DNA from: an uncultured Acidimicrobiales bacterium
GTDB lineage: Bacteria; Actinomycetota; Acidimicrobiia; Acidimicrobiales; SZUA-35
Reading direction: 5' to 3'
Length of the DNA: 64,000 nucleotides
Assembly: GCA_937930695.1 (NCBI GenBank)
Contig: CALHCB010000083.1
Coordinates: forward strand, 1 to 64,000
In this document: positions 7,097 to 24,061 of the stretch, in pieces
Layout of the letters: each line of letters begins with the position of its first letter
How positions within the stretch are numbered: position 1 is the first letter of the stretch
The notes under the pieces: model-generated
What the model was told of the DNA's origin: nothing
Seen by the model: only the letters and a program-made list of their open reading frames with translations
The model's database searches: none
Translations under genes and position numbers: made by a program

Positions 7097-8026
7097 CTAG
7101 ATGCCCTTGCCCAGTTTGTGAGCCGCCTTGAGAACCTGGCCGGCTGGAAGACCAGCAGCGACGAGCAGGGCTACGGGCCAACGCTTCTCGGTCGGCTTCA
7201 ACTTGATGATCTCGGTCACGGTCTTGAGCGCACGCCGGCGATCTTTCATGGCCGCTTGAGCCACCGCTTGTTGACCACGAATCCGGGCGAGGCCCTCAGG
7301 GTGGTCGTGGAATTCTGGATACTTATTGACCAAGAATTCGAGTGCGGTATCGATGACCTTCCACTTCTCGAAGAAGAAGGAAGCACCATGCCAATGCACC
7401 CGAATGAGCGGCTTGGGCGCTACGGCGAACGGCGACAGCCTGGCTGCTCGGAGCAGCCAGTCGTAGTCCTCCGCGTACCCACCAGGAATGGTTTCGTCGA
7501 CATCACCGAGTTCGGCAATCAGCTCAGCCGAGGCGAGCGTGGCAGAAGGGTGTACATCGGTCATGCGATCGTTGAGAAAGCCGGAGAAGGTCAGCTTCGA
7601 TGGATCAGGGATCCGCTCGATGTCGTCACCCTCGTAGTGGATGAAGATGCCGGTGGTGGCAACGCGAGCTCCGGGAGTGGCCTTCAGCGCCTCGAACTGG
7701 CCAGCGAGTTTCCCCGGCAACCATTCGTCATCGTCGTCACAGAATGCGATCCACGGGTGCGTCGCTTTGGCCACACCGGTGTTGCGTGCCCCAGCGAGGC
7801 CCTTGCTGTGATCATTGGTGATCACGACGATTCTTCGCTCGAAGCCATCGACGACCTCTTCGAGTTCCAGACTCCGGTCAGGCGCGTCGTTGTCGAACAC
7901 GATCACGATTTCGATATCAGCGCCATGGTTTTGGCTCAGGACTCCGTCGATCGCTCGACGAAGAAGCTCTGGTCGGTCCAGTGTCGCGATGACGGTGGAG
8001 ACAGCGTTGTCAGGATTCCCGGCCAT
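7097..8026 (-). CDS. Glycosyltransferase family 2
   Basis: VSTVIATLDRPELLRRAIDGVLSQ...GLAGARNTGVAKATHPWIAFCDDDDEW. Confidence 0.92.
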   Translation of the reverse strand: MAGNPDNAVSTVIATLDRPELLRRAIDGVLSQNHGADIEIVIVFDNDAPDRSLELEEVVDGFERRIVVITNDHSKGLAGARNTGVAKATHPWIAFCDDDDEWLPGKLAGQFEALKATPGARVATTGIFIHYEGDDIERIPDPSKLTFSGFLNDRMTDVHPSATLASAELIAELGDVDETIPGGYAEDYDWLLRAARLSPFAVAPKPLIRVHWHGASFFFEKWKVIDTALEFLVNKYPEFHDHPEGLARIRGQQAVAQAAMKDRRRALKTVTEIIKLKPTEKRWPVALLVAAGLPAGQVLKAAHKLGKGI

Positions 8027-8027
8027 A

Positions 8028-8618
8028 TCAGTTCTTGAATCCGTCGTGGACCGTCAATGATGGCGAGGCGACACGTTCAATCGGCGTCTCGATGCCCAAG
8101 ATTTCATCGACCACTCGACCGAACGTCGCAACGCCAATGGGCACGCTCTTTTGTTCGATCGGAAGATTCATCGACGCCGGATTCTTGAGTGCTGCATCGA
8201 TGGCCGCAAAGAATTCGGTCTCGGTCCAGACGACGACAGCCATTTTCTGCTCGTCAAGGTGCCGGGCAAACCGCATCTGGTGACCATCAACGTGCTCAGA
8301 CAGTTCTGGATTGCGGGGGACCACAATCGGTTTGCGTCCGGCCGCTCTGGCATCCATCACGGTTGAGGGACCACCGTGGCAGATCACCACAGATGACTGG
8401 GAGAACAAGCGCCGAAGCTCGTCGTGAGGAATGAGCTCATGGCTCTCGATGTCTCGCGGCTCACTCGAGGTGCCGCGCTGCACGACGAACTTCAGGTCAG
8501 GGTGCTGGGCGACGTAGTGCTCGACCCAGCGAACCATGCGATCAAATCGATGGTGATCTGTTCCAACCGACACGACAATCAGCCGTTCGGGAACAGAGTT
8601 ATACATAGCCGCGGTCAT
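8028..8618 (-). CDS. Alg13/PssE-like glycosyltransferase catalytic subunit
   Basis: VSVGTDHHRFDRMVRWVE...VICHGGPSTVMDARAAGRKPIVVPR. Confidence 0.85.
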   Translation of the reverse strand: MTAAMYNSVPERLIVVSVGTDHHRFDRMVRWVEHYVAQHPDLKFVVQRGTSSEPRDIESHELIPHDELRRLFSQSSVVICHGGPSTVMDARAAGRKPIVVPRNPELSEHVDGHQMRFARHLDEQKMAVVVWTETEFFAAIDAALKNPASMNLPIEQKSVPIGVATFGRVVDEILGIETPIERVASPSLTVHDGFKN

Positions 8619-9118
8619 CAGTACACCAGTCCTGTCAATTCGCTACCGGGGTACAGGTTTTGCTGCTCGGGCCACTGCACACAGAACTTGGAGGCCAAGG
8701 GGGCGCAAAGCTTGCCGGTGAGTGTCTTTGAGTCCACTCGGTCGTAGACCTCGAGGTACACCGTAGGAATCTTGTTCTTTTTCGCAATGACGAAGAACGG
8801 CACCGCCACACCTGCCCCGTTTGAAATCACTACATCCGGACGCCACGTATTGATGACGTTCTGCGCCAGCCGAAAGTTGCGGATTGTGTTGGGAATACTA
8901 CGCGTAGTGGGATAGTGGGCCGCAATGAGTTCTTCTCCCTCGAGCTTCGATCTCGCATCGGAGATGTCGAAGGTCACCCAGCGGCGCTCGTGGCTCACCC
9001 ACCAGGGGCGCAGCTGAAGAAGCTGACTGAGGTGCCCGCCGGCAGAGCACACGAAAAGAACCCGGCGTCTATCCGCCGCGTCGAAAATGGTGTCATGGGT
9101 GTTCGCCGCGTCACTCAT
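8618..9118 (-). CDS. Alg14/PssD-like glycosyltransferase subunit
   Basis: VLFVCSAGGHLSQLLQLRPWW...RPDVVISNGAGVAVPFFVIAK; overlaps the Alg13-like ORF. Confidence 0.85.
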   Translation of the reverse strand: MSDAANTHDTIFDAADRRRVLFVCSAGGHLSQLLQLRPWWVSHERRWVTFDISDARSKLEGEELIAAHYPTTRSIPNTIRNFRLAQNVINTWRPDVVISNGAGVAVPFFVIAKKNKIPTVYLEVYDRVDSKTLTGKLCAPLASKFCVQWPEQQNLYPGSELTGLVY

Positions 9119-9765: not shown

Positions 9766-9815
9766 TATCAATAACAATCGACATTTTTCCCGAAACATTG
9801 AGCCTCGGAGGCACA

Positions 9816-10976
9816 GTGACCCAAGAACTGGGGACATCTGAAGTGAACCCGGACGAATACGCCTGGCTTGGTGAGGTTCTTGGGGGTATTGGTGTAGGCC
9901 GACCGACCCAGTACCTGGTTCGGCCCAGCGTGGCCGAGCCTCAGTTGTTGCTGCCGCTTCAGCCTTCCAAGGTGACCGCAGCAGCGATGCGACGCCATCA
10001 CGATGGGCGCGGTCCCAAAGAAAAGCTTGTCGGTCTGGCAGCAGAATTGGCAGCGCGGGCCGGACTTCTCAAGTACGCCGGTGGCGAAGTCCACGAGTTG
10101 GCACCATTCGGTCTGATTTCCCGGCTCGCCGACGAGCTCAACGAGCCTGATCTGATTGCAGCGATCAGCATCGGTCCGCGGCGCCGCAACCGCAAGCCAG
10201 TGATCCAGCTCCTCAAGCCGTCGGGAGACTCGGTCGGCTTCGTGAAGGTTGGCTGGTCTGGGCTTACACGAGAGCTCGTGTCGAACGAGGCTCATTGGCT
10301 TCGCGAGGTAGAAGGAAAGCTCCCGTCGCCGCTCGAGGCACCTCGCGTGTTGTTGCGCCACACCGATGAACACACGGACACCGTCGTCACCTCTCCCTTA
10401 CCGATAAAGGCGGCTCTTCGGCCACCTCCCCCGATGACCGCTGCGCTCATGCTCGGTCTCGCTCGCTGCACAGGCTCTGACCAGGTGCCGGTCAGTGATT
10501 TGGGCACCGTCAGCGACATCGCAAACGCCGCCAAGGTGGGTCCCATCGACCTCCCGGCGCTGCTCGAACGCCATGGCCATGTCGAAGTCGAAGCGGGAAT
10601 GTGGCACGGCGACCTCACGCCGTGGAATACCGCCACCGGCCCTGATGCGACACTGCTATGGGACTGGGAGTTTGCCGCTGGTCAGCGACCTGTCGGTTTC
10701 GATCTTCTCCACACCGCGTTCGAAAAGGTCCGCCGAGCGCAGGCCAACAACGAAGAAGCGGCGGTCAGAACGATCCTCAACGAAGCCTCGTCGATTCTTC
10801 GACCCGTGACCGGTCGCGCCGTTCCGCAACCTGTCGTGGACGCCTACTGCGATCTCTACTTGGCCGAGCTCATTGCCAGAGAGACTCGCTTGGCGGGCGA
10901 AGGATGGCGACCTGCGAACCTCGGCCCGCTCGATCAGGTTGCCGCCGAGGCCCTGCGCCGTCGCCTGGCAGCCTAA
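9816..10976 (+). CDS. Aminoglycoside-phosphotransferase-fold kinase
   Basis: MWHGDLTPWNTATGPDATLLWDWEFAAGQRPVGFDLLH. GTG start preceded by GGAGG. Confidence 0.75.
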   Translation: MTQELGTSEVNPDEYAWLGEVLGGIGVGRPTQYLVRPSVAEPQLLLPLQPSKVTAAAMRRHHDGRGPKEKLVGLAAELAARAGLLKYAGGEVHELAPFGLISRLADELNEPDLIAAISIGPRRRNRKPVIQLLKPSGDSVGFVKVGWSGLTRELVSNEAHWLREVEGKLPSPLEAPRVLLRHTDEHTDTVVTSPLPIKAALRPPPPMTAALMLGLARCTGSDQVPVSDLGTVSDIANAAKVGPIDLPALLERHGHVEVEAGMWHGDLTPWNTATGPDATLLWDWEFAAGQRPVGFDLLHTAFEKVRRAQANNEEAAVRTILNEASSILRPVTGRAVPQPVVDAYCDLYLAELIARETRLAGEGWRPANLGPLDQVAAEALRRRLAA

Positions 10977-11029: not shown

Positions 11030-12523
11030 GTGGTCGTGACCGACAAGCCAGCAGCGCCGCGCCAAACCGCAGGCGCCGCCTCGAGCCTCGCCATTCTCGG
11101 AGCCATCATCACCACCATCGCAAACTTTGCGATCGCCTTCCTGGTTTCTCGGGATTCGGCTGAACTGGCAGGCGTCTTCTTCATCGCCACCGCCATCGTG
11201 ACGATTCTGGGCAACGCCGCCAGCCTGGGGACCATGACCGGTCTTGTCTATTTCATGCCGACGGAGCTCGGTCCCCGATCAGGTGGACCCCGCCCGCTCA
11301 TCAGCATGGCACTCCGACCGGTAGGAGCAGCGTCCTTGCTGTTGACCCTCGGCTTGGTTGCACTCGCTGGCCCACTCGCTCAACTCGTTGCCGAAGATCG
11401 GGCTGACGACGTCTCGGCGATGCTGCGCATCTTGGCGCTCGCCGTTGTGCCCTGGGCTCTGACCGTTGGTCTACTCGGCGCCAGCCGCGGGCTCGGCTCG
11501 CATACCCCAACGGTGCTTGTGAGCCAAGTCGTTCGGCCGGGCCTCCAAATCCTGCTCCTTGGCGGCGTGTTCCTTCTCGACTCGCCCCCGATCTGGGCAA
11601 TCGGCGTCGCCTGGGGTCTCCCGGTCGCAATTGGCGCTGTGCTGGCCGCAGTATTGGTCGGCAGACTCGGCGGCTGGGAGCGCGGAGACGGACGCCGGAT
11701 GAAGTCCTCCGATTTCTGGTCGTATACCCGGCCGAGAGCCCTCTCAACCGCCCTGCAGATTGCACTCGAGCGAATTGATGTCGTGCTCGTCGGGGCGTTC
11801 GTCGGACTCGGGGCCGCTGGCGTCTACGGAGCGTTGACTCGCTTCATCACTGCGGGCAACTTCCTCATGTACAGCGTTGCGCAGGCGATCTCGCCGGGAC
11901 TGCGCAGAGCGATCGCCAACGAGCAATGGGACAAGGCACGGAACGTACTGCAGAAGGCAACGGGCTGGCTCGTCCTCATCGCTTGGCCCTACTTCCTCGC
12001 CATCAGCCTGAAACCCGAACCGCTCGCCGAACTCCTCAGCAGCGGGTACGTCGACGATGCGTCGATCATGGGATTCCTCGCTATCGGCATGATGTTCAGC
12101 GCTCTCTCCGGACCGATCGAGCTCAATCTCTTGATGCTCGGACGCAGCGGGCTCGCCCTCATCGGCATCGTTGTCGCGATCGTCGCCGACGTACTTCTGC
12201 TCGGGATTCTCACTCCCTCACAAGGCCTTGCCGGCGCCGCGATCGCGTGGTCGGTAAGCGTTGCCGCTCAGAATCTGATCAACGCCTACTTCGTGCGTCG
12301 GGAAACAATCGAACGCGCCGAACGACCTCTCATCGCTCCGAGTAGCCGTGCACTCCTCGCGGGAGTCATCGCCATCGTCAGCGTGGTGCCGATCTCACTC
12401 GTCACGCCCAACTCATTCGTTGGTCTCGTGATCGTCGGCGTTGTCGCCGGTCCACTGACGATCGGTCTCGCTTTGGCGGCGGGACCTCGACTCGCTGTGC
12501 GCGAACTTCTTCCTGGTCGCTGA
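11030..12523 (+). CDS. Polysaccharide flippase (Wzx/MOP superfamily)
   Basis: Multi-TM; N-terminal AAGAASSLAILGAIITTIANFAIAFLVSRDSAELAGVFFIATAIVTI; context. Confidence 0.85.
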   Translation: MVVTDKPAAPRQTAGAASSLAILGAIITTIANFAIAFLVSRDSAELAGVFFIATAIVTILGNAASLGTMTGLVYFMPTELGPRSGGPRPLISMALRPVGAASLLLTLGLVALAGPLAQLVAEDRADDVSAMLRILALAVVPWALTVGLLGASRGLGSHTPTVLVSQVVRPGLQILLLGGVFLLDSPPIWAIGVAWGLPVAIGAVLAAVLVGRLGGWERGDGRRMKSSDFWSYTRPRALSTALQIALERIDVVLVGAFVGLGAAGVYGALTRFITAGNFLMYSVAQAISPGLRRAIANEQWDKARNVLQKATGWLVLIAWPYFLAISLKPEPLAELLSSGYVDDASIMGFLAIGMMFSALSGPIELNLLMLGRSGLALIGIVVAIVADVLLLGILTPSQGLAGAAIAWSVSVAAQNLINAYFVRRETIERAERPLIAPSSRALLAGVIAIVSVVPISLVTPNSFVGLVIVGVVAGPLTIGLALAAGPRLAVRELLPGR

Positions 12524-13125: not shown

Positions 13126-14040
13126 ATGGGGATGACTCGTGAGTTCGAGATCCCTCAAGTGGTTCAGAACAAGGCAGCCGCTGCTGGAGCCCAGGCTTGG
13201 CTCACCGAGCTCCCCGAACGAGTCGCTCACCTGGAACGGCTGTGGGATATCACGGTCGACAACGTGTACACCGAAGGAACTGAGGCGTTCGTCGCCGCGG
13301 CGCTCTGCTCCGACGGATCAACAGCTGTCCTGAAGGTAGCCATCCCGCGCCTCGACACTACCGAGGTACGTCACGAGGCAACGGTGCTTCGCCTCGCTGC
13401 AGGCGATGGCTGTGCTGCCCTCCTGGCTGAAGAGCCCGAGCATCACGCCCTCCTCATGGAACAACTCGGGCCGTCGCTGTTTGACCTCGACCTACCGGTC
13501 ACAGCTCGCTGGGAGATCCTCTGCGACACCGCATCGCGACTCTGGCGAATCACCCCGGATGCAAGCTTGCCGACTGGCGCCGAGAAGGCTGCATGGCTTT
13601 CAGACGCCATCAGTTCGCGGTGGACGGATCTCGACCAACCCTGCTCAGAGCGGGCTGTGGAGGTCGCTCTCGCTGCCTCTGATCGTCGTCGTCTGGCACA
13701 CGACGACGAACGCTCCGTACTCGTACACGGCGATGTACATCAATGGAATGTGTTGCAAGCCAGCGTTGGCTTCAAGTTGATCGACCCCGACGGGCTCTTC
13801 GCAGAGCCCGAATACGATCTCGGCGTCATCATGAGAGAAGACCCGATCGAGCTCATGGCCGACTCTGACCCGAGGCTTCGTGCTCGATGGTTGGCCCAGC
13901 GTTGTGAACTCGATGTCGAGGCCGTCTGGGATTGGGGCCTCATCGAGCGAGTCTCCACCGGCCTGCTGTGCGCAGAAATCAATCTGCAACCAGTTGGCCG
14001 CCAGATGCTCCGGGCGGCCGAATACGCCGCCGATGCCTAG
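13126..14040 (+). CDS. APH(6)/hydroxyurea-kinase-like phosphotransferase
   Basis: VLVHGDVHQWNVLQASVGFKLIDPDGLFAEPEYDLGVIMRED resembles the PF04655 type. Confidence 0.75.
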   Translation: MGMTREFEIPQVVQNKAAAAGAQAWLTELPERVAHLERLWDITVDNVYTEGTEAFVAAALCSDGSTAVLKVAIPRLDTTEVRHEATVLRLAAGDGCAALLAEEPEHHALLMEQLGPSLFDLDLPVTARWEILCDTASRLWRITPDASLPTGAEKAAWLSDAISSRWTDLDQPCSERAVEVALAASDRRRLAHDDERSVLVHGDVHQWNVLQASVGFKLIDPDGLFAEPEYDLGVIMREDPIELMADSDPRLRARWLAQRCELDVEAVWDWGLIERVSTGLLCAEINLQPVGRQMLRAAEYAADA

Positions 14041-14083: not shown

Positions 14084-15103
14084 TCAGCTGAGGTCGCGGA
14101 CGAATTGGCCGAAGGCGTCGGCTGACTCGACGCTCGAGTCGTGGCTCCAAATACAGTTTGGCCAGGTTCCCCCTGGAGCGTTCACGTTGAACCAGGCAAC
14201 GAACTCCAGGTCATCGGCGATCTCCGGGCGAGCCAACGTTGCGGCAGCATCGCGGAGCCAGTCCGCCTTGCGGTCGGGTTCGTTTCGATCCTCGGCCGAC
14301 GCGAACTCGGGCAACGCAAGCGGCTTGTTGCGGTCCCTGGCGAAGTTCAGCGGTTCGACGAGCAGAGAATCCAGGTCGACCCAGGGTCGATCAGATCCTT
14401 GGCACGTATGCCAGTTGTACAGATCTGCACCGACGACATCAACGACATCATCACCCGGATACCAAAGCTCAGCGCGACCATCAGAGAAGGCTCCGGACGT
14501 CATGGTCCAGACGACGACCGTCTCTTCGCCGCCTCGCTCACGAAGCAGCTGCACAAAGCGACGCCACATCGCTACGTAGTCATCCGCATCACCATTGCGT
14601 GCCGAGTCGTTGGTCTCGGGTTCGTGATTGATCGTGACGTAAGTGCCGGGACCGACGTCGATCATGCGGTCGATCCACGCCACGAACTCTTCGTAGAGCT
14701 CATCACCTGGTTGAGCATCGGCCATGTCGCGCCACTGAATGACTCGACCGCCAGATGCGTTGGGCCGAACAGACATATGCAGGGTTCGACCAGCATCGAG
14801 CAGCGCTTGCTGGTCGGCGTTGGGAAAGACAGAGTCCCAACGAGAGAAGGTTCGGATCACTGGGAAACCGGCGCCCAGTTCGACCTCGAGGTCTCGTACG
14901 GTCGCTGCCCGACCCTCGGGGACCGCGATGCCAAGGACAACTCCTGGATCAACGTCGGAATCGGCAAGCGATGCTGGCGGGTCTGAACTGAGCAACGTCG
15001 TCGGCTGGTTAGAGGTCGTGGGCGTCGTGCTGGTTGAGGAGGTCACGCACGACGTCGCAGTCAACGCTCCGGCGCACAAAACCGAGAGCGCAAGTCGCCT
15101 CAA
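14084..15103 (-). CDS. Lipoprotein, GH26-like glycoside hydrolase
   Basis: Lipobox TATSCVTSS; ...GTYVTINHEPETND...MWRRFVQLLRERGGEETVVVWTM...WYPGDDVVDVVGADLYNW. Confidence 0.65.
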   Translation of the reverse strand: MRRLALSVLCAGALTATSCVTSSTSTTPTTSNQPTTLLSSDPPASLADSDVDPGVVLGIAVPEGRAATVRDLEVELGAGFPVIRTFSRWDSVFPNADQQALLDAGRTLHMSVRPNASGGRVIQWRDMADAQPGDELYEEFVAWIDRMIDVGPGTYVTINHEPETNDSARNGDADDYVAMWRRFVQLLRERGGEETVVVWTMTSGAFSDGRAELWYPGDDVVDVVGADLYNWHTCQGSDRPWVDLDSLLVEPLNFARDRNKPLALPEFASAEDRNEPDRKADWLRDAAATLARPEIADDLEFVAWFNVNAPGGTWPNCIWSHDSSVESADAFGQFVRDLS

Positions 15104-16401
15104 GACACGTCACTTTGCAGTCGAAGCGCGAGCGCGGCAGCAGCCATCATGGTGAACAACTGATGGGGCACATGTAAGTAGTAAGGCAGCTGGATCAGTC
15201 CCACGATGATCACGATGTGCGCCCACATGCCGGTGACCGTCGGCTGACGGCGAGTTCTCCAGGCCAGCGAGAGCAACGCCCCGATGTAGCCAATCGCGCC
15301 CACAAAGCCGTGAGAGAACATTACGAACCAGATTTGACCGTGGGTTCCCACCGACGGGAGGTTGCGATCGTTCGGTCGAGGTGCGCCCCATCCGAACACG
15401 GGGCGTTCCATGGTTCCCTCGATGGCGTCGAGGATCAGTTCAGTTCGGTCGCCGTCGGAGTGTCCGTTGTCGAGACGGCTCATGATGATGCCGCTGAGCG
15501 GCGTCACAACGATGGAGACGACGAAGAAGACGGCAACGAGAATCGAGTTCCGGACTGCTCGGCTTCCGCCTGCGACCCCGAATCGGAAGGCGGCATAGAT
15601 GAGGCCAACACCAAGGCTCAGCCACAGACCACGGTTGAGTGAGATCACCGCCGGGACGACCGATGCGGCAAGCGTGACTTTGATAACGGTTTTCGAGAAA
15701 CCAACCCGAGGTTCGTTGAGCGCCATGAGGCCGAACGGGGTCAGGAGGCCGAGCATCGAACCCCAACTATTGGTATAGGGGAACGGGGCTTTCGGTCGAG
15801 GAACCGGGAATCCGATGATGTCCTGAAGGTCGGCAAAGCTCGGCGTCACCAGCGTGTTGATGAGGTCGTTCTCTCGAAGTGCACCAGGGATGACGTATCC
15901 CATTGGAGCCAGGAAGGAGAGGTCGCCCACAAAGAACGCTAGGTATCCGCCAACGACGGTCGCGATCCAAAGCCACGTGAACGATCGGATCACGCTCCAC
16001 GCCGGCAGACCTTTCCGACCGTTGAGGACGTAGAGCAAGGTGATGGTCGCAGCGACGTAATACCCGTACCGAAGGAGCCAGCCGGACAGACGCGGCACCG
16101 AATCGATACTGAACACCGACACGGCAGCAGCGGCAAGAAAAACGATCCACCAGCCAAAGCCTTTCGGGACCACGATGCCGCGACGACGGACAAGCGAAGC
16201 TGCCATCGGGGCGGCAAAGATCACCCAGGTGAAGCCGGCCAGTCCCAGAATGAACCAGAGCGGCGTGAGCGCGATCATGCCGGTGATCGGCCAAAGCGGA
16301 AGCGGAGCCTCTGCTTCTGGACGCAGAACTGACGGACGGAAGTGGCCCGCTGGTTCGGCGTGATCGGCTGACGGGCCGACGCTGTCGACCGCTGCGGTCA
16401 T
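15100..16401 (-). CDS. O-antigen ligase / polymerase family membrane protein
   Basis: Polytopic; SLNRGLWLSLGVGLIYAAFRF...RTELILDAIEGTMERPVFGWG...VGTHGQIWFVMFSHGFVG. Confidence 0.85.
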   Translation of the reverse strand: MTAAVDSVGPSADHAEPAGHFRPSVLRPEAEAPLPLWPITGMIALTPLWFILGLAGFTWVIFAAPMAASLVRRRGIVVPKGFGWWIVFLAAAAVSVFSIDSVPRLSGWLLRYGYYVAATITLLYVLNGRKGLPAWSVIRSFTWLWIATVVGGYLAFFVGDLSFLAPMGYVIPGALRENDLINTLVTPSFADLQDIIGFPVPRPKAPFPYTNSWGSMLGLLTPFGLMALNEPRVGFSKTVIKVTLAASVVPAVISLNRGLWLSLGVGLIYAAFRFGVAGGSRAVRNSILVAVFFVVSIVVTPLSGIIMSRLDNGHSDGDRTELILDAIEGTMERPVFGWGAPRPNDRNLPSVGTHGQIWFVMFSHGFVGAIGYIGALLSLAWRTRRQPTVTGMWAHIVIIVGLIQLPYYLHVPHQLFTMMAAAALALRLQSDVS

Positions 16402-17978
16402 CAGGTCGGCGTGCTCTCCGCCACAATCGTGCCGACAACCTCAGCGCCAACACGGCGAAGTTGTTCGACCGAATCAGCGACGTCGGAGCGACTCGAACGA
16501 CCGGGCTCGATGACGAGGACAACGCCCTCGCAAAGCCGCCCAAGATCGGCGGCGTCAGCAACGGCGAGAACGGGTGGAGCTTCCACAACCACCAAGTCAT
16601 AACCGCCCTTGACCTGTGACAGGAATCGCCCAAGGGCGACGCTCTGAAGCAGGCGAGCGGGCTGTTGAACCGGGGAACCTGCGGGGATGATCCGCAGATT
16701 GGGCAGGTCGGGCGTCTGCTGCAGCGCGCCATCGACGGCCACCTGGCCAGCCAAGACGTCGCTGAGACCACGCACGTTCTCCAACCCGAAGCGGTCATGA
16801 AGGCTCGGCCGGCGCAGATCAGCACCGATAAGCAGCGTTCGCCGACCAGCGCGAGCGGCTGCGGTCGCCAAGTTGGCCGCCACAGTCGTCGTTGAGTGGG
16901 GGTTGTTGGTGCCGGTGACAAGAACAACGGTCTTGTCCGACTGGTCGAGATTGAACAACAAGCTGCCCTGAACTCGGCGGTACGCCTCGCCCGTTTCGGA
17001 GTTGAGCTCGGCGATGGCTTGATCACTGCCAAGACGGAAGATGCCACGACCCACCGGAACCGTACCCATAGGGCTGAGGTTCATTTGGGCGAGTTCGCTG
17101 GCGACGCTACGGAAACGATCGTCACGACGGTCAAGCATGAAGGCCACACCGAGGCCAGCAAGGGCACCGAGCATCAAGCCGCTCATTGGCCCAGCCAAGA
17201 ACGGAAGTCCCGCTCGACCTTCTGGAACGTCGGCATCGTCGAGGACTTCTCCGGCGTTGATGCTAATCGCACTGATGTTGGCGAGTCGTGCACCAATTCC
17301 GGCGAGTTCTTCTCGCTTGGAGACGTCGCGGTAGCCGAGTGACTGACGCTCAGCGTCCGTGGTCGCTGCCGCAATCTCACGAGAGAGCGTGTCGAGTTCA
17401 ACGATGAGCTCTTGCTCGCGCTCCAACAGCTGTTGACGGGCAAGTTCGGTACCAGCAAGGCCTTCGTCGCGCCGGAAGTCGAGGTAAGCGTGGGCCATCG
17501 ACTGCGCAAGCTCCTGAGACCGTGCCGCGGTTCCAGCTGTGGCGGTGATCTCGAGCACCTGAGAGTCAGCGGGGATCGAGATGGTGATGTTCTCAACAAT
17601 GTCGCGAGCGACTTCGGTGTCCACCACGAGGGTGTCGGCCAACATCTCCACCTCTGGGCTGTTGAGATCGCTGGTCTCCAGTTGGTCCGCAGCATCAAGC
17701 AGGGCCAAGGCTCGCTCGGCCACTCGCTGGGAGCCCGCGATCGCACGTTCTGTCGTGGTGTTGACCTGACGGCTCACGTCAAGGTTGGGATCGTCGCCCT
17801 GAGTCACGAGTGGGCGGACTTCGACGGTAGCGACAGACTCGTAGCTCGAGCCCTGCAATCCAATCAAAACCGACCCGAGCACGAGCCCGATGATCGACGC
17901 GACCGCAATAAGCGGCCACCATCGTTTCAACGCACTCGTGTACTCAGACACATCGACGACGGCTTCTCCGTCGAGCAT
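16401..17978 (-). CDS. Wzz/BY-kinase-like protein with degenerate nucleotide-binding motifs
   Basis: Wzz-like N-terminus plus CpsD-like domain: TVVLVTGTNNPHSTTTVAANLA / RTLLIGADLRRPSLHDRFG / YDLVVVEAPPVLAVADA. Confidence 0.88.
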   Translation of the reverse strand: MLDGEAVVDVSEYTSALKRWWPLIAVASIIGLVLGSVLIGLQGSSYESVATVEVRPLVTQGDDPNLDVSRQVNTTTERAIAGSQRVAERALALLDAADQLETSDLNSPEVEMLADTLVVDTEVARDIVENITISIPADSQVLEITATAGTAARSQELAQSMAHAYLDFRRDEGLAGTELARQQLLEREQELIVELDTLSREIAAATTDAERQSLGYRDVSKREELAGIGARLANISAISINAGEVLDDADVPEGRAGLPFLAGPMSGLMLGALAGLGVAFMLDRRDDRFRSVASELAQMNLSPMGTVPVGRGIFRLGSDQAIAELNSETGEAYRRVQGSLLFNLDQSDKTVVLVTGTNNPHSTTTVAANLATAAARAGRRTLLIGADLRRPSLHDRFGLENVRGLSDVLAGQVAVDGALQQTPDLPNLRIIPAGSPVQQPARLLQSVALGRFLSQVKGGYDLVVVEAPPVLAVADAADLGRLCEGVVLVIEPGRSSRSDVADSVEQLRRVGAEVVGTIVAESTPT

Positions 17979-18095: not shown

Positions 18096-19613
18096 TCAAG
18101 CGCAGGGCGTTCCTTCCGGGCTCGGCCCAGGAACAATGCCGATGACCTCAGGTGTAGGCGCTTCGGTGACCGGAGCTGCGGTCGTGGGAGGCGCGGTGGT
18201 CGTTGGTGCGGCGATCGAGCCAGCGGGCAACGGGGTTTCGAGCAAACCGTCGAAATCGGTCCCTGTCACCAGGGCGACATCGGTGATCGTGGGGTCGAGT
18301 TCAAACACTGGAGCGACAACGAGGTGCACGGCAACACTTTCCGCCGCAGCTTCGAGCCCCGGGCCGTACAAGATCTTCGTCTGGCTGGTGGTCTCAGCAT
18401 TGTCCTTCGAGGACACGATGAAGCCGCGAGTGCCGAGTTCAGAGGTGATCTCGCCCGCCTGCCCAGCGATTCGACTGCCGTTCAGAACGCGCATCTCGAA
18501 TGCGGAAGAAGCAGTCGTTGGGACTGGTGTGCCATCGGATTCGAGCTGAGGTTCGATGCCGCGGAACAGATTGAGAATCGGCATGGCCTCTTCTTCGACC
18601 AGTCCGAGGACCGCTGCGTTGTTTGGCGCCCGAAAGTCATAGACAGGCAACGCGTGTCCTCGGATCTGGCCTTCTTCGACACTGGAGAAGATCGAAGCCA
18701 ATTGCAGGAGGTCGTCGGCACTCACCGCTTGATCGAGCGCCAGGTTCTCACCACCAACGTCGAGGATGGAGTTGATCGTGCCGATCGAGGTGATGTCGAG
18801 TTCTGACGCAGCAACGGCTGCTACCCGGCTCAGAAAGTACTGCTGACGACTTGTTCGCCCCAGATCGCCCGTGCCGTCCAGCCGCCACTTCCCGTTGTCG
18901 AAGTATTCGAGATTGCGCCCACGAGCGAATGCCAGGGCTTGCGAACCGTCCAGGCTGTGACAGCCCGCCGAACTCACGTCGAGGCCAGATCCGGTGTCTC
19001 GCATCGGGCGGTCGAACCAGATCGGGACCCCTCCGAGCGTGTCGACAACGTCTTGGAAGCCGACGAAGTTGATCTCGGCATAGTGATTGATTTCGATACC
19101 GAAGTAGCTCTCGATGGTGTCAACCAACCGTTGGGCGCCGTTCTCGCCGTTGAACGCCGTGTTGATCCGGGACTCACCACCGGTCCCTGCGATGGGGACA
19201 TAGAGATCTCGGGGAATCGACAGCAAGTCGACCGAGCGGGTCTCAGGATCGACCCGAGCGATGATCATGGTGTCGGTGCGCGTGCCACCGATTGGGCCAT
19301 CACCGAGAAACTTCTCCGCGTTCGGATCGCTCTCGTCAATACCGTCGCGGGTGTCTGTTCCGACCAACAGCCAATTCGACGGTTCACCGGGCGCTGCGAC
19401 TTGCTCCACGGACCCCTCTGTGAAGGGAATGCGGGGAATCGCCTCGTATTTGTCGAGTCCCCAAGCAAGAACACCGGCAGCCATCATCGCCATCACGGTT
19501 GCGGTGACGCCGCTCGCAACGACGATGCGTTCGATCCACGATCTGCGGTAGCGAGCCGAGCGTGGCGGACGAGGCCGTGGAGCCAGCTCGGTGGGCGGTG
19601 ATTCAGCCGACAT
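18096..19613 (-). CDS. LytR-CpsA-Psr (LCP) family protein with LytR_C domain
   Basis: GTRTDTMIIARVDPETRSVDLLSIPRDLYVPI...INTAFNGENGAQRLVDTIESYFGIEINHYAEINF; C-terminal VLNGSRIAGQAGEITSELGTRGF. Confidence 0.94.
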   Translation of the reverse strand: MSAESPPTELAPRPRPPRSARYRRSWIERIVVASGVTATVMAMMAAGVLAWGLDKYEAIPRIPFTEGSVEQVAAPGEPSNWLLVGTDTRDGIDESDPNAEKFLGDGPIGGTRTDTMIIARVDPETRSVDLLSIPRDLYVPIAGTGGESRINTAFNGENGAQRLVDTIESYFGIEINHYAEINFVGFQDVVDTLGGVPIWFDRPMRDTGSGLDVSSAGCHSLDGSQALAFARGRNLEYFDNGKWRLDGTGDLGRTSRQQYFLSRVAAVAASELDITSIGTINSILDVGGENLALDQAVSADDLLQLASIFSSVEEGQIRGHALPVYDFRAPNNAAVLGLVEEEAMPILNLFRGIEPQLESDGTPVPTTASSAFEMRVLNGSRIAGQAGEITSELGTRGFIVSSKDNAETTSQTKILYGPGLEAAAESVAVHLVVAPVFELDPTITDVALVTGTDFDGLLETPLPAGSIAAPTTTAPPTTAAPVTEAPTPEVIGIVPGPSPEGTPCA

Positions 19614-19685
19614 AACGAGAGAGGACGCTAGCGCCCCCAGGCTCCAACCGGGGTGCACGTTGGAACTGTGATCGAGACGGGTGGG

Positions 19686-21830: not shown

Positions 21831-23150
21831 ATGAACGAGCCCGCCCTGCTTGCGCGCCAGCTCGTGGCGCGTCTCGGAGACGACATCGACACGATTCTCC
21901 CCGCGCCACCGAATGCTCCGACACCCCAGGTGAACGACGCTGCCCGCCCGGACGGCGCTGTCGTCCAGCTTCGCCAAGTAGCGGGACTCACTGCAGGGGA
22001 CACAATCAACTTGCCATCGGGCCAGTTCGAGTTCGGCGAAAAGCCAGCCGGCACCGACGGAGGAACCGAGACCGATCACGACGAGGCCACCGCGTTCTCG
22101 TTGAACGTCGACGAGTCGGGCGACGTCATCATTGACCCTGGCGAGTCTCCAGTTCGTCTTGATGGCCGACGGATCAGTACGTCGCACCGAGTCGGGCAGC
22201 AAACCATTGATGTCGGTTCGGCCCGCTTCGTCGCTCTTCGCGCCGGTGACCGCGCACGCTCGAATCTTGGTTCGACACCGCGGCTCATGCCTCGCTCCAT
22301 TGTCATTCCTCGCCTGAAAGAGCCAACCGTTCCCCAGGGAAACTGGCGTAAGCGGGGCGATCGCCGAGTCAGCGACACCGAGGCGTTGCGGTCAGCCAAC
22401 GATGAAGCTCGCGACCTCATCGCGGCCGAAGGTCAACGCCAAGCCCAGGAACGGTGGACGGTTCACCTCGACCCGACCCGGATCAGCGACCTCCTCGAGA
22501 TCGGCCCTGGAGCACTCTGGCAGCGACCAGCGGGCCACTGGCATTTTGGAAGCGCAGCGATTGCGGCAGCCGATCTGACCTGGCGGCCCGAACTGGTTGG
22601 CGATACCTCTCGGCTCGACGACCCCGAGTTGCTCGCCTATGGCGTCATCCCGTCGGCACCTCTGGTCGCAGATCTTCGTCAGGGCCCTCTCGGCATCGTT
22701 GGTCTCCGAGCCGCAGCCCTTGCGGTGGCCCGACATGTCATCGTCACGTTCGCCACCGCTTCTCCTGCATCGGATCTCGAACTTGCAGTTCTGACCACAG
22801 ACCTCGGCGACGCCGACTGGGCCTGGACCACTGGATTGCCTCACACGAGTGGCGACGACTCGGGCAATCCCATGCCGGTGATCGTCGTCGACGACCTCAG
22901 GATCTTGGCCGACGACAGCATTCGAGGAGCGATTCAGGATCCTCGATCTGCCGGTGCAATTCTCATCGCGGATCACCTCGAGGACCTCCCGAACTATTGC
23001 TCGACCACGATCGTGATTGCGCGAAACGGAACCGCCGTAGTGAGCGACCATCGCTCCGGGACTCGCATGACGAACGCAACGCCAATCGGAATTTCTGGAA
23101 CGACTGCCGAAGCGGCGACGAGCCGGCTTCGGGACGCAAGTTTGAGCTGA
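21831..23150 (+). CDS. EssC/FHA-FtsK-like N-terminal region protein without ATPase domains
   Basis: FHA-like start, then ALWQRPAGHWHF...DDPELLAYGVIPSAPLVADLRQGPLGIVGLRAAALAVARHVIVTFATASPASDLELAVLTTDLGDADWAWTTGLPHT; no Walker A/B FtsK module before the stop. Confidence 0.65.
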   Translation: MNEPALLARQLVARLGDDIDTILPAPPNAPTPQVNDAARPDGAVVQLRQVAGLTAGDTINLPSGQFEFGEKPAGTDGGTETDHDEATAFSLNVDESGDVIIDPGESPVRLDGRRISTSHRVGQQTIDVGSARFVALRAGDRARSNLGSTPRLMPRSIVIPRLKEPTVPQGNWRKRGDRRVSDTEALRSANDEARDLIAAEGQRQAQERWTVHLDPTRISDLLEIGPGALWQRPAGHWHFGSAAIAAADLTWRPELVGDTSRLDDPELLAYGVIPSAPLVADLRQGPLGIVGLRAAALAVARHVIVTFATASPASDLELAVLTTDLGDADWAWTTGLPHTSGDDSGNPMPVIVVDDLRILADDSIRGAIQDPRSAGAILIADHLEDLPNYCSTTIVIARNGTAVVSDHRSGTRMTNATPIGISGTTAEAATSRLRDASLS

Positions 23151-23161
23151 GGAGCCCCACC

Positions 23162-24061
23162 ATGTCCGAAGAACTGTCATCGTGGTCTGTACGCCCTGCA
23201 TCGACGGCGGAGCCGTCTTCAGAAGCAATGCCCGCTGCGGCGTCGCCGCCACCGGAAGATGAGCGGCCGGTCTGGTTGTACGTCGGCCTCGCCAGTGTTG
23301 TCGCCGTCGCGGTGCTCTCGGGAGTGCTCCTTACCCAGGGCTCCACTCAGACCACCGACGACGTCGCCGCCGCTCCAACTTCGGAGGTTTCGGCCTCCGC
23401 GGATGCATCTGACCCGCCCGAGGATGGCGTATCGAACCGCAGCGATGGTCCGGTGCCAGAGGGCATGGCGTTTACCGAGGGAGAAAACGGGTCGCTGGAC
23501 GACGACACCAACACCGTCCCCGAGGAGACAGCTCCGAGCACCGAGCGGCGGGCCTACATCAAGGGAGGCATCCTCTACCTCGAAGGCGCCATCCCGAGCC
23601 AGGCACTCGCCGATCTCATCGTTGAACGCTCGAGCGCCGTGATGGGTCCAGACCGAGTCGTCAACAACTACACGATCGATCCCGCATCCACCTTCGATCC
23701 AAATCAAGGTGCGCCGCTCTATGTCGAGGATCTCGTTCTCTTCCCGACGGGAAGTGCAGAGTTCGCTCCCGAGGCCGTGCCGCTACTGCAACTCGGCGTC
23801 GTTCTCATGACGCAGTTCGACACCGTCACCATCGACGTGATCGGTCACACGGATTCACTTGGCAGCGACGCCGACAACCTCGCCCTCTCGCAGGCCAGAA
23901 TTGATGCAGTTGTGAGCTATTGGGTCGCTGCAGGGATCGATCCGAGCAGAGTCATCGCCATCGCCAAGGGTGAAGCCGAGCCGCTCGCAGACAACAGCAC
24001 AGAAGAGGGTCGCCAACTGAACCGTCGTGTGGAGTTCGTGATCACTGGCCTGCTCGGCTGA
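23162..24061 (+). CDS. OmpA/BON-type membrane protein
   Basis: Single TM, BON-like segment, then LVLFPTGSAEFAPEAVPLLQLGVVLMTQFDTVTIDVIGHTDSLGSDADNLALSQARIDAVVSYWVAAGIDPSRVIAIAKGEAEPLADNSTEEGRQLNRRVEF. Confidence 0.88.
   Translation: MSEELSSWSVRPASTAEPSSEAMPAAASPPPEDERPVWLYVGLASVVAVAVLSGVLLTQGSTQTTDDVAAAPTSEVSASADASDPPEDGVSNRSDGPVPEGMAFTEGENGSLDDDTNTVPEETAPSTERRAYIKGGILYLEGAIPSQALADLIVERSSAVMGPDRVVNNYTIDPASTFDPNQGAPLYVEDLVLFPTGSAEFAPEAVPLLQLGVVLMTQFDTVTIDVIGHTDSLGSDADNLALSQARIDAVVSYWVAAGIDPSRVIAIAKGEAEPLADNSTEEGRQLNRRVEFVITGLLG

Follow-up and report, generated by a model that had tools for sequence, protein, structure and literature searches.

The window, i.e., the analysed stretch of 64,000 nucleotides from an uncultured Acidimicrobiales bacterium, encodes a polysaccharide co-polymerase (PCP) fused to a BY-kinase domain which has lost the sequence features of an active kinase. 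We consider it likely that this protein is a co-polymerase of the PCP-2a type with a permanently switched-off kinase, which would serve as a phosphorylation-independent platform for chain-length control and assembly together with the adjacent Wzy polymerase and LCP transferase. We infer this scaffold role from the motif losses, the purifying selection and the linkage to wzy, all of which emerged from the sequences and their comparison, and from a fold obtained by modelling. The locus consists of the following genes:

18096..19658, minus strand: LCP (LytR-CpsA-Psr) glycopolymer transferase with a LytR_C domain
16401..17978, minus strand: PCP/BY-pseudokinase fusion (525 aa; AF2 model with pLDDT 86.2, Foldseek match to Wzc with E 5e-28)
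15100..16401, minus strand: Wzy-type polymerase with a weak match to PF04932 (O-antigen ligase/polymerase family)
14084..15103, minus strand: GH26-family glycoside hydrolase-like protein (PF02156), its TTG start overlapping the wzy stop
11030..12523, plus strand: candidate Wzx-like flippase with multiple TM segments, proposed from locus context, no strong Pfam match
9798..10976, plus strand: putative kinase-like protein "kin2" (392 aa), no Pfam match, APH-like motif HGDLTPWN...WDWE
8618..9118, minus strand: Alg14-like glycosyltransferase subunit (PF08660)
8028..8618, minus strand: GT28 C-terminal-like glycosyltransferase subunit (PF04101)
7097..8026, minus strand: GT2 glycosyltransferase (PF00535), conserved in the locus

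The minus-strand genes are arranged in the order LCP, pseudokinase, Wzy and GH26. The stop codon of the pseudokinase gene and the start codon of wzy share one base (TGATG), and the wzy and GH26 genes overlap in TTGA; both overlaps resemble those of translationally coupled genes. Beyond the GH26 gene, the Wzx-like and kin2 genes lie on the other strand, followed by the Alg14-like/GT28 pair, in which the GT28-like subunit is the likely partner of the Alg14-like protein, and by the GT2 gene. The position of the pseudokinase gene between those for LCP and Wzy, which had been pointed out in a preliminary description of this DNA, was confirmed and is conserved across the family. The gene set for LCP, pseudokinase, Wzy, Wzx and glycosyltransferases is kept in about 20 genomes of the family, with synteny also in other families, and kin2 is retained in this Wzy locus across the phylum. 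A gene between those for the Wzx-like and GH26 proteins (13126-14040, plus strand) matches APH_6_hur (aminoglycoside/hydroxyurea kinase family; 79.6 bits) and is not among the conserved locus genes elsewhere, and a 535-aa protein with a C-terminal OmpA domain is encoded near the locus (22454-24061, plus strand). Genes similar to cysD, cysN and cysC (PAPS_reduct, GTP_EFTU and APS_kinase domains) are present at L052:9321-12223, and cysDNC-like genes were also observed between the LCP and pseudokinase genes of loci L044, L048, L051, L053 and L055; they are absent from the window. Because these genes are those of PAPS synthesis, the polymer may be sulfated in the family members carrying them.

Architecture and motif losses of the window protein

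The reading frame extends on the minus strand from an ATG at 17978 to a TGA stop ending at 16401 and contains no internal stop. The encoded protein consists of a first TM helix (residues ~21-40), an extracytoplasmic alpha/beta domain (~45-260), a second TM helix (~262-285) and a cytoplasmic Rossmann domain (~303-525), which represents the pseudokinase. Its C-terminal half matched the BY-kinase model TIGR01007 with 129 bits (E 1.5e-37; cut-off 108), and a profile built from the family matched Wzc, BceF and CapAB from the PDB at E values of 1e-35 to 1e-39. The score against the Pfam Wzz model was 17.9 bits and thus under the cut-off of 25.5, while 18 of 24 family members reached this model at E<=0.01. 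The AF2 model of the full protein (pTM 0.54) showed the order helix, extracytoplasmic alpha/beta domain, helix and cytoplasmic Rossmann domain, and full-length Wzc K540M was its top Foldseek match. For isolated kinase domains, Foldseek returned CapA1B1 with TMt 0.93 and Wzc with TMt 0.82. Profile and fold place the protein in the BY-kinase superfamily, and the combination of two TM helices around a Wzz-like domain with a BY domain in one chain is that of PCP-2a proteins. Because the modelled layout agrees with the matches to Wzc and CapA1B1, we assign the fold to a PCP-2a protein, whose BY-kinase-like part is retained in the model despite the dead kinase. Both the intact frame and the Wzz/BY-kinase homology reported in the preliminary description, which did not mention the strand, are borne out, the homology being far above chance.

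The three nucleotide-binding motifs of BY-kinases correspond to the following regions:

16881..16919, minus strand: pseudo-P-loop region VTGTNNPHSTTTV (residues ~354-366), Thr/Ala in the catalytic Lys column
16806..16838, minus strand: Walker A' region TLLIGADLRRP (residues 381-391), first Asp replaced by Gly, second Asp kept
16572..16598, minus strand: Walker B region DLVVVEAPP (residues 461-469), Asp replaced by Glu

The whole P-loop counterpart reads VTGTNNPHSTTTVAANLA (residues ~354-371). All three motifs had been quoted letter-perfectly before, and the gapless reading of the P-loop agrees with an HMM alignment to Wzc and BceF, which puts Thr or Ala in the column of the catalytic Lys. The claim that all three motifs are degenerate applies to the P-loop and Walker B and is overstated for Walker A', where only the first Asp of DxDLR differs. 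This position is occupied by Ser or Gly in 10/10 intact Wzy-linked relatives and by Asp in just 5 of 16 intact paralogues, and the second Asp (DLR) is kept in 22 of 24 orthologues. Because intact relatives are also devoid of the first Asp, its replacement by Gly is uninformative on activity, and we rejected Walker A' as a third loss marker. The C-terminal tail (GTIVAESTPT) is free of Tyr, as described previously. Two further losses were detected: the second Arg of the EX2RX2R motif (EAYRRVQ) is replaced by Gln in 23 orthologues and by His in one, whereas the E/D-x2-R part is kept (Arg334 in 24/24; Tyr333-Arg334-Arg335 invariant), and the last-strand Asn of GxVxN is gone (VAE). The window protein therefore contains neither GK[ST], the Walker B Asp and the C-terminal Tyr cluster of active BY-kinases nor the complete EX2RX2R motif of helix alpha-2 that characterises BY-kinase rings, and both ATP binding and Tyr phosphorylation are predicted to be absent.

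Age of the losses and selection on the dead domain

A homologue search set of 61 relatives was analysed. Most genomes of the same family contain one clear orthologue (40-89% identity), while their other BY-kinases are far less similar (~30%). The orthologue set comprised 24 full-length proteins and spanned some ten genera, all belonging to a single uncultured Acidimicrobiales family whose genomes are without exception MAGs; the same-family records in the GTDB scan are all from uncultured Acidimicrobiales or actinobacterial MAGs. Walker A GK[ST] occurs in 0/24 of these orthologues vs. 16/16 outgroup paralogues, and a Tyr after the last strand was likewise found in none of the 24, compared to a median of three in intact paralogues. 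The Walker B position is occupied by Glu in 19 orthologues, Gln in three, Ala in one and Asp in one. The clade-wide loss which the preliminary description had proposed to look for is thus present for the catalytic Lys and the Tyr tail in all 24 orthologues and for the Walker B Asp in 23, with Walker A' not being diagnostic; it covers the whole family, but is not confined to it, as homologous loci elsewhere in the order and the phylum show it again (see below).

We calculated dN/dS ratios by the NG86 method for the same-genus pairs window-G001, window-G003 and G004-G002, which are rough because dS was near or above 1 (near saturation), and obtained values of 0.069, 0.064 and 0.094 for the whole gene, 0.046, 0.039 and 0.052 for the dead cytoplasmic domain, and 0.078, 0.083 and 0.13 for the PCP half, respectively. 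The dead domain was below the PCP half in all three pairs. Equally rough comparison values were 0.081-0.093 for Wzy, 0.088 for LCP, 0.049 for an acyl-CoA dehydrogenase and 0.14-0.18 for the intact BY-kinase paralogue. Judged by these ratios, the dead domain is under strong purifying selection, the opposite of decay. Because it is more tightly constrained than live kinases of the same genus, it probably works as a structural part and not as an enzyme.

Wzy-linked relatives across the phylum

Strong homologues of the Wzy polymerase were found in about 50 of 397 genomes from other families of the order, and others in scattered genomes of the phylum. In almost every locus of sufficient length, Wzy has a PCP beside it, and these PCPs represent a series from intact to absent kinase domains. 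Phylum families 73 and 104 and some members of family f3 have an intact P-loop, Walker B and EX2RX2R together with at least one tail Tyr. Family f27 contributes 13 loci (L154, L155, L160, L161, L171, L174, L176, L178, L182, L184, L187, L204 and L205), in every one of which the P-loop Lys is replaced by Arg (EGRT), the Walker B Asp is kept and the tail is poor in Tyr; these proteins are candidates for an intermediate state or for kinases with altered nucleotide use. The P-loop Lys is changed to Thr in one genus of f3 (L163), and to Ile in f42 together with an Asp-to-Glu exchange in Walker B. Full loss is observed in f1, f17, f19 and another f3 genus (L164-L166 and kin), and phylum families 116 and 117 have a truncated kinase domain or none at all. 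Among the Wzy-linked homologues, the losses of GK[ST], the Tyr tail and, in most, EX2RX2R co-occur. The eroded f3 type was modelled with a pLDDT of 74.3 and partly below 50 in the kinase part; Wzc was still its top match (E 4e-15), but this fold is less certain because of the modest model and the low TM-scores.

Genus g10 (L159, L168 and L169), which belongs to the same family f1, carries a different, more eroded version of the fully degenerate PCP, and has a Wzy that falls in another part of the tree; horizontal transfer has probably replaced the locus. A single frame of 1166 aa in L167 (10568-14065, minus strand) joins a Wzx-like flippase with a (dead) PCP and is a possible natural flippase/co-polymerase fusion. 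The PCPs encoded at L201:16885-17832 and L202:5199-6494, near the same Wzy type, have a missing or truncated kinase domain. No gene for the phosphatase LMWPTP (PF01451) was found in the checked loci, of dead or intact type alike, while one is located near some intact paralogues; this phosphatase was therefore no guide to a joint loss with the kinase.

The Wzy tree, which is not shaped by the kinase motifs, served as reference for counting the losses. It places L163 inside the intact f3 group with a support of 100/96, and an AU test rejects a single clade of all non-intact loci (p=1.3e-6). A single loss for all non-intact Wzy-linked PCPs is ruled out by this test owing to L163; without L163, one non-intact clade is not rejected (support 51/85). 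The placement of L163 and the AU rejection show at least two independent losses on this tree, and more than two are likely, given the differing substitutions (Arg; Ile with Glu; full loss; absent domain). A PCP tree calculated without the motif columns agrees on the main groups, with f27 as one clade (100/100) and f1, f17 and f42 as another (96/94); L163 and L167 form long branches on it, and their placements were not trusted.

We tentatively propose, while holding it a shade more likely to be wrong than right, that one Actinomycetota-wide Wzx/Wzy locus has shed Tyr phosphorylation several times independently, losing the Lys and the Tyr tail each time and the octamer motif mostly, while the BY fold stayed under selection in most lineages. 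If this is true, loci of this type would be able to do without phosphorylation cycling, and the essential role of the BY domain would be an ancestral, non-catalytic one. The role of Tyr phosphorylation in polysaccharide co-polymerases is still disputed, and one homologous gene position here offers active, Lys-to-Arg and dead-but-selected kinases as well as PCPs without the domain. This natural series would allow catalytic and structural roles of BY domains to be separated directly by domain swaps in one host.

Proposed role and known systems

Capsule export by E. coli Wzc requires phosphorylation cycling, and a dead kinase is therefore not neutral there. EX2RX2R contacts hold the kinase ring of Wzc and CapB together, as does the Tyr tail, which lies in the active site of the neighbouring subunit; the octamer breaks up when the tail is phosphorylated and is stable in the kinase-dead mutant Wzc K540M (PMC3795738, PMC8285477, PMC11986026). 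The window protein has lost the Tyr tail and the second Arg of EX2RX2R, the two principal contributors to this ring interface in CapB and Wzc, so that a Wzc-like ring of its cytoplasmic domains may fail to form. In the proposed co-polymerase with a permanently inactive kinase, the membrane and extracytoplasmic half would determine oligomer assembly in place of phosphorylation cycles; PCP-1/Wzz octamers assemble in this way, and Wzc remains an octamer when unphosphorylated. The Rossmann domain would persist as a rigid element that helps cytoplasmic partners, or the PCP itself, to dock or fold, and the structural reason for keeping the BY fold might be either PCP stability, as provided by HfsB for HfsA, or the docking of cytoplasmic enzymes.

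The pseudokinase could alternatively act by pairing with an active BY-kinase, either in a hetero-oligomer or as a competitive regulator, as proposed for inactive CapB1 with CapB2 in S. aureus, which sets a precedent (PMC3795738). At least one intact paralogue is indeed present in most genomes of the family, and with few exceptions (e.g., the P-loop GGTST in L091) these paralogues keep GK[ST], the Walker B Asp and a Tyr tail. The paralogue from the genome of the window (G000:C16) shows GKTT, the Asp and the Tyr tail, but it is located on another contig and evolves faster. Moreover, no other BY-kinase with more than 60 bits to the BY-kinase model was detected in G003, G009 and G026 (drafts of 91, 96 and 84% completeness). 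Judging from these three drafts, an active partner is probably not needed, and the authors of the EcpK study argued along similar lines against pairing (PMC12004946). Hence, we regard pairing as unlikely.

An atypical but active enzyme, whose rewritten loop has acquired a novel mode of binding nucleotide, lipid-PP-sugar or some other ligand, would fit with the occurrence of the rewritten P-loop NNPHSTTT in many genera (Asn359 and Pro360 in 13/24 orthologues each, Gly356 and Asn369 invariant) and with the well-conserved Walker B region (majority fraction 0.83 among the 24 orthologues). We consider this quite unlikely, because the loop is merely average in family-wide conservation (0.62 vs. 0.67 for the whole domain), reads TTDGAS, VNDAAA or TEAGGSDT in other genera of the family, and contains no substitute Lys at any consistent place in the 24 orthologues. 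That the kinase domain is a decaying remnant without function beyond its attachment to a needed PCP appears very improbable: the heavily eroded (L165 type) or absent domains (L201, L202) in lineages with the same Wzy demonstrate that an end point of decay exists, but in the family studied here, of the two halves of the protein, the dead domain is under the tighter constraint, and its modelled fold is intact. Finally, a sequencing or assembly error or a recent pseudogene is hardly credible. We found nothing in favour of it, and identical losses occur in 24 orthologues with intact ORFs from independent MAGs. The combination of close intact homologues and relaxed selection, by which the preliminary description had defined a recent pseudogene, is excluded by the absence of GK[ST] from all 24 orthologues and the domain dN/dS of 0.04-0.05, and we rejected this explanation. 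This leaves the co-polymerase with a permanently inactive kinase as our preferred reading.

BY pseudokinases are already known: EcpK and HfsB are stand-alone proteins, and earlier sequence analysis has predicted fused forms for Gram-negatives. No actinobacterial BY pseudokinase was found in the open-access literature searched. Within the literature covered, the new aspects are the occurrence in this phylum, the linkage of the locus to LCP, a deep conservation under a constraint above that of active paralogues, and the series from intact to absent domains at one homologous locus.

E. coli Wzc (PCP-2a) resembles the window protein in architecture and fold, with kinase-dead K540M as best structural match, but it is catalytically active as an autokinase, its tail is rich in Tyr and it undergoes phosphorylation-driven octamer cycling with Wza, while the catalytic and tail parts are gone from the window protein. 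The PCP-1 proteins Wzz and WzzE provide a parallel in that an octameric PCP surrounding Wzy controls chain length independently of a kinase, but are devoid of a cytoplasmic Rossmann domain. CapB1 of S. aureus is inactive in vitro and has been discussed as a possible Gram-positive BY pseudokinase; however, it is separate from its PCP CapA1, its active-site residues are described as conserved and it is inactive for other reasons (PMC3795738). The closest in kind are the fusions of PCP-2 and pseudokinase that Cuthbertson et al. listed (cited in PMC12004946), namely S. meliloti SMc01795, a Brucella ceti protein, Mesorhizobium Mlr8439 and Vibrio vulnificus VV1_2305, which by their description share the same architecture and are Gram-negative; the account given there does not describe an intact-to-dead series in one homologous locus for them. 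EcpK of Myxococcus xanthus and HfsB of Caulobacter crescentus function without Walker motifs (PMC12004946). HfsB is a pseudokinase needed for a Wzx/Wzy polysaccharide and important for PCP stability, but HfsA/HfsB is a Gram-negative two-protein system (PMC12004946). EcpK combines a BY fold with orthologue-wide loss of the Walker motifs and the Tyr tail in a Wzx/Wzy pathway and was proposed as a PCP scaffold (PMC12004946); it is a separate Gram-negative protein with EpsV as PCP, whereas PCP and pseudokinase form one polypeptide in the actinobacterium studied here, and the window locus encodes an LCP transferase, unlike the EcpK setting. The window protein shares the sequence features of the EcpK/HfsB kind, i.e., the fold, the loss of motifs and tail across orthologues, the selection and the Wzx/Wzy locus, and thereby extends BY pseudokinases from these two studied cases, both Gram-negative, to the Actinomycetota.
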